The notes beneath the pieces were generated by a model. The model did no database searches and had not been told where the DNA came from. It saw only the letters and a list, made by a program, of their open reading frames with translations. Made by a program: the position numbers and the translations under genes. 43,624 nucleotides of DNA from an uncultured Lachnospiraceae bacterium (GTDB lineage: Bacteria; Bacillota; Clostridia; Lachnospirales; Lachnospiraceae), in contig CAMNGU010000008.1 of assembly GCA_946538525.1 (NCBI GenBank), positions 1 to 43,624 of the forward strand, written 5' to 3'. Positions within the stretch are counted from its first letter, which is position 1. Each line of letters begins with the position of its first letter. This document shows positions 16,017 through 20,648 of this stretch, piece by piece.

Positions 16017-16042
16017 AGATTTCTTAGCTTCAAAGCAACTTT

Positions 16043-16126
16043 ATATCCCTTCGTTGGCATTATCCAAATCAGGTTTAAAGGGTCCAGAATATAATCCTGT
16101 TCTCAGCCTGTCACACAAGCTCCCCG
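16043..16126 (-). promoter_or_regulatory. TPP (THI-box) riboswitch aptamer
   Basis: Read on the minus strand it carries all conserved parts of the thiamin pyrophosphate aptamer in order: CGGGGAGC at the 5' stem, GGCTGAGA (the pyrimidine-binding CUGAGA), GGACCCTTTAAACCTGAT (the ACCUGAU core), and GGATAATGCC followed by AACGAAGGGA (the pyrophosphate-binding helix). It lies upstream of thiM with a downstream terminator. High TPP should therefore stop transcription of the salvage operon. Confidence 0.97.
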
Positions 16127-16139
16127 TTTTCTGCACTAT

Positions 16140-18840: not shown

Positions 18841-18879
18841 AAAAAAGGCAGATGCCACATAAACTGCGACATCTACCTT
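18841..18879 (-). terminator. Terminator of the acidic-protein gene
   Basis: On the minus strand AGGTAGATG pairs with CATCTGCCT (18846-18854 with 18870-18878, one G-U pair) and is followed by TTTTTT (18841-18846). Confidence 0.8.
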
Positions 18880-18921
18880 GGATTCGGATATTATGTTTGT
18901 TATCTCGAGACACTATGATTA

Positions 18922-19329
18922 CTATGCTCTTTTCACAAGTCCAACTAAGACTTCAGTGATTCCTCTATGTCTCTTTTCAACAGGTACAGGTTCTGGTGCA
19001 CGAACTTCCTCTGGCTCTGGTGCGGTGTATTCCTTGGTCTTAATCTTAAGTTCCGGTTTAAGATCTTGTTTTAGATCCTCTATAACTTCCTTCTTAACTT
19101 CTGGTTCAGCCACCTGCTCGATTCCAATATCTTCCAACGCTTCCATGAGCTTTTCGAAGTCATTATCTGCTATCTTATCTTCAACTTTATCGTCGACTTT
19201 ATTATCTATTTCAGATTCTTTCTCTTCTACTCGCTCTACCGTCTTCTCAACAACTGGAATCTCAAGACCTGAAGGTAGTTCGTCATCACTAATACCAAGC
19301 ATCACATCAATATCCATCTCATCGTACAT
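18922..19329 (-). CDS. Acidic low-complexity protein of unknown function under c-di-GMP riboswitch control
   Basis: A 135-aa protein I cannot place in a family. It has no cysteine, no tryptophan, no signal peptide and no membrane segment. An acidic N-terminus (MYDEMDIDVMLGISDDELPS) is followed by Glu/Lys/Asp/Val-rich helical or coiled-coil-like repeats (about 28-95) and a Pro-Glu linker (APEPEEVRAPEPVPVEK). It ends in a short basic, amphipathic helix (RHRGITEVLVGLVKRA). The two conserved-looking ends joined by a charged spacer suggest an adaptor or tether (inference). ATG follows GGGAGG by 7 bases. It is monocistronic, with its own promoter, a c-di-GMP-I riboswitch and a terminator. It lies directly downstream of the Ter locus. 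Confidence 0.75.
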   Translation of the reverse strand: MYDEMDIDVMLGISDDELPSGLEIPVVEKTVERVEEKESEIDNKVDDKVEDKIADNDFEKLMEALEDIGIEQVAEPEVKKEVIEDLKQDLKPELKIKTKEYTAPEPEEVRAPEPVPVEKRHRGITEVLVGLVKRA

Positions 19330-19358
19330 ACATTTACCTCCCTATAATGATACTAAGT

Positions 19359-19398
19359 AAAAAAAACATCAGATTTGGCTGTGCAGCCAACTCTGATG
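19359..19398 (-). terminator. Riboswitch expression-platform terminator
   Basis: CATCAGATTTGGCTG (19367-19381) and CAGCCAACTCTGATG (19384-19398) form a long stem with one internal mismatch and a 2-nt gap. On the minus strand eight T follow (19359-19366). Its first arm (TTGGCTGC on the minus strand) can alternatively pair with GCAGCCA in the aptamer 3' side, giving an antiterminator. Confidence 0.9.
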
Positions 19399-19412
19399 AA
19401 TTAATCATGTAA

Positions 19413-19480
19413 GTGCAACTGGCTGCCATATTAAAGGCCCTAATAGCTTTGCGTCGCCGGTTTTCACCGGTTTTGCCAAA
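19413..19480 (-). promoter_or_regulatory. Cyclic-di-GMP-I (GEMM-I) riboswitch aptamer
   Basis: On the minus strand the conserved blocks appear in order: GGCAAAACC, a CCGGT-GAAA-ACCGG hairpin with GNRA tetraloop, GACGCAAAGCTA (the ligand-binding core), AGGGCCT, and ATGGCAGCCAG. A terminator follows immediately, and pairing of the aptamer 3' strand with the terminator arm predicts an off-switch: c-di-GMP stabilises the aptamer and frees the terminator. The only gene controlled is the acidic protein at 18922-19329. Confidence 0.92.
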
Positions 19481-19496
19481 TATTTAACTTAATAAA

Positions 19497-19525
19497 ATTA
19501 TATTAAACTATGCAAGTAGCGTCAA
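19497..19525 (-). promoter_or_regulatory. Promoter of the c-di-GMP riboswitch transcript
   Basis: Minus strand -35 TTGACG (19520-19525), a 17-base spacer and -10 TATAAT (19497-19502). Near consensus, so constitutive initiation with control by termination is expected. Confidence 0.8.
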
Positions 19526-19598: not shown

Positions 19599-20648
19599 CT
19601 ACACATCAGAAAGGTTCTTTATCAGTCCGCAACATTTATAGTTTTCAAGATCACCTATTACAATCTCAACATTCTTTTCTTTCGCCAGCTGGAAAATATG
19701 AGCTAATTCAGGACTATCTTCATATTTCCTATCTACCACAACTTTCCAAGGAACTCTACGAAGTAAAACTCTGGTTGTCTCTCCTATTCCCGGCTTTATG
19801 AAATTCACATTGTCAATCTGATATTCTTTTGAAAGGTTAGATACATCCTTCTGAGCTTCTTTATCAGAAACCGGAGCAAGTGGTTCCAGATCAAACTTGA
19901 ACTTATCTATTATTGTATCAATAAATTCATAAGTTCTATCCTGATCAGCTAGCTCTCCATAATAAGCAGCACCATGGAAATCATCCTCGCCTATAATATC
20001 TGTTCTCAAAAATGTTCGGCTCACTAATCCACAAACTGTACAGTTAAGACATGAGCTTGGAATCATAATATCCTCATGAGTTCCACAAAGATCAGTAATA
20101 TATGCAGGATCTGCTAATACAGCAAGCTCATCAGAAACTCCATCAAAATTTCCTATTTCCTTTCTTAACTCCCTGTATATAACGCCTTTTCCAGTCCATC
20201 CATCAACAAACTGAATACTCTCAGGACTATGCTTACTCAAAATGTATTTCATGGCATTCTTGTCGATTCCTCTATCTCTAATAATAGAAATCGAATAATG
20301 CGGACAAGAAAAACCATATTTAGCTTTAATATATCTTTTGATCAGAACACCCACTGGTGAACCCGCTCTTGCTAAAGATACTATAACTACATCTTTTCCT
20401 TTTTTCTGGAGAATCAGCTCTGACACTCTAGCAACAGCATCAGCTGTAGATTGTCCAAAAACATTAAGGGCATTTTCATAAATCTCAATATATTTATCTG
20501 TAGGCTGATATTCCAACGGTAACATTTCCGAATAATGTGTACCAGTCTGTATTTTCTTCTCGCGTTCCTTTGTTGGTAAAGGTTCAACAAGTCCTGTTAT
20601 ATCCTTTAGTAAAAGTGTAATGTCATCCTCAATAAAACTGCTCTTCAT
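19599..20648 (-). CDS. StiP-type phosphoribosyltransferase-like protein of the Ter biosynthetic module
   Basis: A 349-aa protein resembling the family labelled 'cysteine protease StiP', which comparative genomics reinterpreted as a PRTase-fold enzyme of Ter operons. A Rossmann-like half carries SLARAGSPVG (91-100) and the signature FVDGWTGKG (147-155), the position of a PRPP-loop equivalent. A middle cysteine patch reads CLNCTVCG. The C-terminal 60 residues (GIGETTRVLLRRVPWKVVV to CCGLIKNL) look like the PELOTA-type RNA-binding appendage described for these proteins (family knowledge, moderate certainty). Its ATG directly abuts the TAG of the PRTase-TRSP gene, so the two are coupled. It is the last gene of the Ter operon. 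Substrate and product are unknown. Confidence 0.8.
   Translation of the reverse strand: MKSSFIEDDITLLLKDITGLVEPLPTKEREKKIQTGTHYSEMLPLEYQPTDKYIEIYENALNVFGQSTADAVARVSELILQKKGKDVVIVSLARAGSPVGVLIKRYIKAKYGFSCPHYSISIIRDRGIDKNAMKYILSKHSPESIQFVDGWTGKGVIYRELRKEIGNFDGVSDELAVLADPAYITDLCGTHEDIMIPSSCLNCTVCGLVSRTFLRTDIIGEDDFHGAAYYGELADQDRTYEFIDTIIDKFKFDLEPLAPVSDKEAQKDVSNLSKEYQIDNVNFIKPGIGETTRVLLRRVPWKVVVDRKYEDSPELAHIFQLAKEKNVEIVIGDLENYKCCGLIKNLSDV

Follow-up and report, generated by a model that had tools for sequence, protein, structure and literature searches.

A compact c-di-GMP-I riboswitch, predicted to act as an OFF switch, precedes a lineage-specific gene for an acidic orphan protein in Lachnospiraceae

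Riboswitches of class I for c-di-GMP are known from C. difficile, where they are described, at the level of an abstract, as OFF switches throughout (PMC6200980). In the transcript data excerpted from the same paper one exception appears, as the class I gene CD630_19900 goes up with c-di-GMP. Regarding the genes behind these switches, an excerpt of a review names five small hypothetical proteins, i.e. CD1424, CD1981.2, CD1990.3, CD2309 and CD3368.2 (PMC11477304). Thus, the view that an orphan target is unusual for this class, as expressed in a sequence-only reading of the locus described here, does not stand against the C. difficile examples in that excerpt. In the case of the Lachnospiraceae, including those of the rumen, a text search of the literature found no paper joining the family with a c-di-GMP-I riboswitch, and what was retrieved on c-di-GMP riboswitches and Butyrivibrio concerns, in the parts available, LytTR systems.

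The window, i.e. the whole stretch of DNA that was analysed, comprises 43,624 nucleotides from an uncultured Lachnospiraceae bacterium. As in the C. difficile examples of the review excerpt (PMC11477304), to which it is likened by description, it contains a class I switch before a gene for a small hypothetical protein, for which no convincing relative was found beyond the genus. Altogether, this is a lineage-specific and well-supported target, although of an already known kind (an orphan gene behind a class I switch). Promoter, aptamer, terminator with antiterminator and one gene with its own terminator form a complete single-gene unit, with the following features:

19497..19525, minus strand: promoter TTGACG-17-TATAAT, with 11 of 12 consensus letters
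19411..19487, minus strand: c-di-GMP-I aptamer in compact form (RF01051, 54.0 bits, cut-off 35)
19383..19426, minus strand: predicted antiterminator, GCAGCCA/TGGCTGC plus spacer ACTT/GAGT and ATGA/TCAT (in the folds of four of five leaders; 72/75 cells paired)
19359..19398, minus strand: intrinsic terminator belonging to the switch, ending in eight T (-17.5 kcal/mol, z -4.5; 65/65 cells paired in five leaders)
19337..19342, minus strand: RBS GGGAGG, from the sequence (GGGAGG or TGGAGG before all five full-length copies)
18922..19329, minus strand: orphan gene, an ORF for a 135-aa acidic protein with its N-terminal 27 residues and C-terminal RGITEVLVGLV conserved
18845..18879, minus strand: terminator 3' of the orphan gene (-23.1 kcal/mol, z -7.1)

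The near-consensus promoter that had been proposed is the sole exact match of its pattern in the window. When up to two mismatches are allowed, five matches are found against a chance mean of 5.6; hexamers resembling this promoter were seen by eye before the other full-length copies of the gene. At the opposite end, the second terminator (18879-18845) closes the unit, in agreement with the earlier claim of a switch dedicated to one gene.

The presence of a c-di-GMP-I riboswitch with all GEMM-I blocks, as recognised from the sequence, is borne out by the covariance model RF01051, which matches 19411-19487 on the minus strand well above the gathering cut-off (E 6.2e-8 in the whole-window scan). 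The aptamers of the four other full-length gene copies score similarly with 51.2 to 55.3 bits. P2 carries a GAAA loop, and the GCAAAGC core is also present. At the ligand-contact places, which we take to be G20 and A47 by Vc2 numbering, a G and an A are found in the window as well as in all five orphan-gene leaders. Altogether, this RNA is almost certainly a c-di-GMP-I riboswitch, with c-di-GMP as its predicted ligand. Compared to the RF01051 riboswitches, the window aptamer shares the cut-off-level score, the GAAA loop, the core and the terminator platform; it differs in having a compact P3 with neither the distal hairpin nor the CCUAAG receptor side. In the Rfam alignment, CCUUUAAUAUGG takes the place of CCUAAG-hairpin-UAUGG, so that of the P3 receptor only the UAUGG half is kept. 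Searching all of Rfam gave two gathering-level matches in the window, the other one being a TPP riboswitch (16029-16136, minus strand, 67.1 bits), an ordinary one upstream of thiamine-type genes.

Behind the aptamer, the terminator consists of a hairpin at 19398-19367 followed by eight T at 19366-19359 (minus strand); it was absent from the output of a simple terminator scan. As had been pointed out, GCAGCCA of the aptamer (19426-19420) and TGGCTGC of the terminator arm (19389-19383) are complementary, and the alternative pairing (19426-19383) is even longer than the stretch named at that time. When the RNA of the five leaders was ended ahead of the lower 3' arm of the terminator, the antiterminator was contained in the lowest-energy fold of four of them, with the leader of genome G032 as the exception; in the full leaders, the lowest-energy folds form the terminator in all five cases. 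Over the five leaders, 72/75 cells (96%) of the antiterminator and 65/65 (100%) of the terminator were paired, compared to 11 to 44% in controls in which the partners were shifted by 1 to 3 columns; these controls favour the named structures, as the latter derive from one of the five leaders. Two-sided pair changes amounted to one in the antiterminator and two in the terminator, and these were matched by 102 and 83 of 500 shuffles, so that the covariation is only suggestive.

As one strand serves both the aptamer and the antiterminator, binding of the ligand is expected to cause termination. At low c-di-GMP, the 3' strand of the aptamer would pair with the 5' arm of the terminator, RNA polymerase would read on and the protein would be made. 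When c-di-GMP is high, the aptamer would fold and retain its 3' strand, the terminator would form and the gene would be off. Aptamer and expression platform are mutually exclusive by predicted pairing, except that the lowest-energy fold of the G032 leader does not show this exclusion. The converse possibility is an ON switch, in which an arrangement stabilised by c-di-GMP blocks termination and expression rises, and the excerpted C. difficile data do contain one class I target that goes up with c-di-GMP (PMC6200980). However, the antiterminator requires the aptamer's own 3' strand and is thus excluded by a folded aptamer, which renders an ON switch quite improbable. The predicted direction is thus likely to be OFF, as the sequence-only reading had also proposed, and it agrees with the C. 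difficile class I switches as summarised in the abstract (PMC6200980).

To describe the distribution of the unit, a profile search (E <= 0.01) was carried out on 61 genomes of the genus. Matches were found in seven of them, and six were counted as carriers in these partly incomplete assemblies (the window's own genome is 80% complete): the own genome (G000), G005, G032, G042 and G050, plus G020 with a shortened copy. The weak matches in G055, a charged 352-aa ORF, and in G065 were left out of this count. Each of the five full-length copies, the window included, is preceded by a c-di-GMP-I aptamer, a terminator and an RBS, always in this order; homologues were thus found behind a GEMM switch in 5/5 full-length cases, while their surroundings, judged by eye and with Pfam, differ from locus to locus. 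The G020 copy misses the N-terminus, and no switch is visible in the short stretch upstream of it. A GGDEF gene lies immediately upstream in G050, and a GGDEF-like end was seen by eye near the G020 copy; as a functional link, such a neighbour was set aside because the neighbours at the other loci differ. In G005 (L015:7849-8810), three c-di-GMP-I aptamers are found inside 1 kb; the orphan gene follows one of them and a small HTH gene another, and the remaining one has no clear gene.

In an RpoB tree with 37 rows, from which the own genome and G020 are missing as neither gave an RpoB match, three carriers group together with support, and G050 branches separately, next to G052. The carrier label needs two changes on this tree, which was equalled by 4 of 500 shuffles. 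The PFK of the window's genome shares 88-91% identity with its counterparts in nine genomes, four of them carriers (G005, G020, G032 and G042) and five non-carriers. As a whole, the distribution of the orphan gene is narrow and patchy, covering a few related bacteria. Beyond the genus, no convincing homologue was found: the order-wide search matched 3/392 genomes, namely the window's genome itself and two others whose weak matches lie inside frames of 718 and 504 aa, the family-wide search matched the own genome only (1/299), and neither viral contigs nor plasmids gave a homologue. A text search of the literature for two peptides from the protein found no paper containing them.

The sequence-only reading had further suggested that the protein acts on the adjacent Ter system. 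The Ter-type genes of the window end at 19599 and share the reading direction of the orphan gene, and this adjacency is what speaks for an adaptor that acts on neighbouring Ter proteins under c-di-GMP control. However, the Ter C-C lyase (PF15617) was found above cut-off in 5/61 genus genomes and in only two of the six carriers (G000 and G042), and it is adjacent to the orphan gene in the window only; in G042, the lyase lies on contig C37 and the orphan gene on C44. At the other full-length loci, four in number, 23 neighbouring ORFs were compared with Pfam and none belongs to a Ter family, and the four other PF15617-positive genomes have no c-di-GMP-I switch on the Ter contig among the matches listed. 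One G005 protein near the orphan gene (L015:10175-10591) looks TerB-like by eye and matches no Pfam family at E 0.01. The Ter adaptor is thus largely refuted and extremely improbable, and the Ter idea can be dropped for the orphan gene.

The orphan protein is acidic, with a net charge of -20 and 44% charged residues in its 135 aa. No match was found in Pfam at E 0.01, in PADLOC or in the PDB, and NCBIfam gave only matches far under the family cut-offs, in line with the earlier description of a charged protein with no recognisable domain. Two blocks are conserved: an N-terminal motif, MYDEMDIDxM..DEELPT, and the C-terminal RGITEVLVGLV, which is invariant in 6/6 copies although the codons differ. 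The linker between these blocks varies from 29 to 94 residues. Values of pN/pS were 0.23 to 0.50 over 27 N-terminal codons (six overlapping pairs) and 0, 0.18 and 0.09 over 13 C-terminal codons (three separate pairs), and such purifying selection at both ends indicates that the protein is made. A decaying or untranslated ORF, for which the RNA alone matters, would fit the narrow and patchy distribution and also the G020 copy with neither N-terminus nor visible switch. Since pN/pS lies far under 1 at both ends and the RBS is preserved in five genomes, such an ORF is very improbable. Altogether, the gene is a clean predicted single-gene target of c-di-GMP, small and alone, and its two conserved ends are precise baits. 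The proposal of a new c-di-GMP effector was an overreach, as it is the gene that c-di-GMP is predicted to control and nothing suggests that the protein binds it.

To obtain a structural view, AlphaFold2 was run on a five-row alignment and gave a model of low confidence (mean pLDDT 56.5) with helices at 57-67, 81-87 and 124-134. With the same low confidence, the protein may be mostly disordered with a C-terminal helix. This helix, RGITEVLVGLVKRA, has a hydrophobic moment of 0.55 and a charge of +2. Among 6017 14-mers from the 17 other proteins of the window, 20 were as extreme on both moment and charge; if only the combined helix score is considered, 231 of these 14-mers and one of the 17 other C-termini reach the same level. 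MinD carries an amphipathic C-terminal membrane-targeting helix, and the orphan protein is likewise predicted to end in a short cationic amphipathic helix. As a difference, the orphan protein has no predicted folded domain, and no profile match was found for it.

Only one further protein with the same N-terminus was found in the genus genomes, namely a 262-aa protein of G032 (L026:1501-2289), which shares 52 residues from Met1 (pairwise E 2e-6). A profile search of the G032 genome gave E 0.004 for it, and the independent evidence consists of this value and the pairwise one; in a further profile search the sequence was one of the six rows of the profile, so that its score there is not independent. 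No further protein with the same C-terminus rose above noise in the genus (best non-member E 0.27). In the G032 protein, KKKNK precedes a single long hydrophobic stretch, which is probably membrane-spanning; the N-terminus should therefore face the cytosol. The gene of this protein lies directly downstream of FeoB, and the orphan gene of the window also adjoins FeoB. No c-di-GMP-I switch was found on its contig among the matches listed.

Because this relative shares the N-terminus, we consider a docking peptide that would be held at the membrane by either a transmembrane segment or an amphipathic helix. In the orphan protein, the C-terminal cationic helix would lie against the cytosolic side of the membrane, tethering the disordered protein, the linker of 29 to 94 residues would hold out the N-terminal docking peptide for a partner, and c-di-GMP would thus remove a docking site at the membrane. 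From its sequence features, the protein has close to an even chance of being such a membrane tether, while binding of its C-terminus to a protein rather than to the membrane is nearly as likely. The combination of an OFF switch with a membrane tether bearing an N-terminal docking peptide is the best overall explanation, predicted tentatively and still somewhat short of an even chance.

A soluble two-ended linker under the same OFF switch, with its ends binding proteins or each other and the helix off the membrane, is possible but has clearly less than an even chance. The invariance of RGITEVLVGLV in 6/6 copies with varying codons is stricter than a membrane helix requires and fits a protein partner, and AlphaFold2 gave no fold for the remainder of the protein. 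On the other hand, amphipathicity and cationic flanks fit a membrane helix, and the sole relative with the same N-terminus carries the hydrophobic, probably membrane-spanning stretch. An unlikely variant is a riboswitch-gated decoy tether, in which the orphan protein would replace or compete with a membrane protein sharing the docking peptide, as in G032. In this variant, c-di-GMP would add or remove a docking site at the membrane through the one OFF switch, and could so rearrange the location of proteins in bacteria that have no flagella, with no c-di-GMP-binding protein involved.

The CheY-docking motif of the FliM/CheZ type, which we take to be EIDALL, was also considered for the N-terminus. 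A FliM- or CheZ-type docking peptide was ruled out, as FliM (PF02154) is found in 0/61 genus genomes, compared to 4/14 known genomes in the control search. At the same time, c-di-GMP-I matches occur in at least 53 of the 61 genomes; flagellar motility therefore cannot be the target of c-di-GMP in this genus.

Regarding the other switches of the genus, 73 from relatives were read among the matches listed, a choice biased toward short aptamers. The gene behind each was chosen by a simple script that missed some starts, and class names (prepilin, secreted, zinc ribbon) were given by eye, apart from the genes run against Pfam. The genes include eight prepilin-like ones and many secreted-looking proteins. 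A further c-di-GMP-I match in the window's own genome, its second (L002, 37.5 bits), also precedes a prepilin-like gene. A small HTH protein of about 70 aa recurs behind the switches at eight loci in seven genomes (L070, L079, L080, L087, L095, L102, L109 and L015:8870-9100). One of these, run against Pfam, gave HTH_17 with 22.3 bits, under the cut-off of 27; a c-di-GMP-controlled DNA-binding regulator is possible. Behind the switches at L064, L075, L076, L107, L106 and L084, a PP2C phosphatase, a PASTA kinase, STAS, FHA, SPFH with zinc ribbon and a TerB-like protein were found, the latter weak and below cut-off. c-di-GMP may thus steer Ser/Thr phospho-signalling in the genus. With HTH, PP2C, kinase and FHA genes also lying behind switches of the genus, there is nothing unusual here either about a target that is orphan or cytosolic.

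Variation was also detected within the aptamers themselves. At the place of G20, the 73 aptamers (L015-L018 and L061-L120) have 44 G, 28 A and one other base. In the available part of one paper, a G20A change enables cGAMP binding by a class I switch (PMC7288161), and part of the 'c-di-GMP-I' switches of the genus might sense another dinucleotide. Compact aptamers of 76-78 nt make up 50 of the 73 read, with the distal P3 hairpin replaced by caps like CCUGUAAAAUGG or CCUUUAACAUGG. Wherever read, their P2 loop is GAAA-type or near, and the short P3 cap is a possible alternative tetraloop receptor. The switches before prepilin-like genes (L118, L119, L120 and L069) have P2 loops GUGA, GUAA and GCGA, not GAAA, together with another P3, and a joint change of loop and receptor is possible in these switches.
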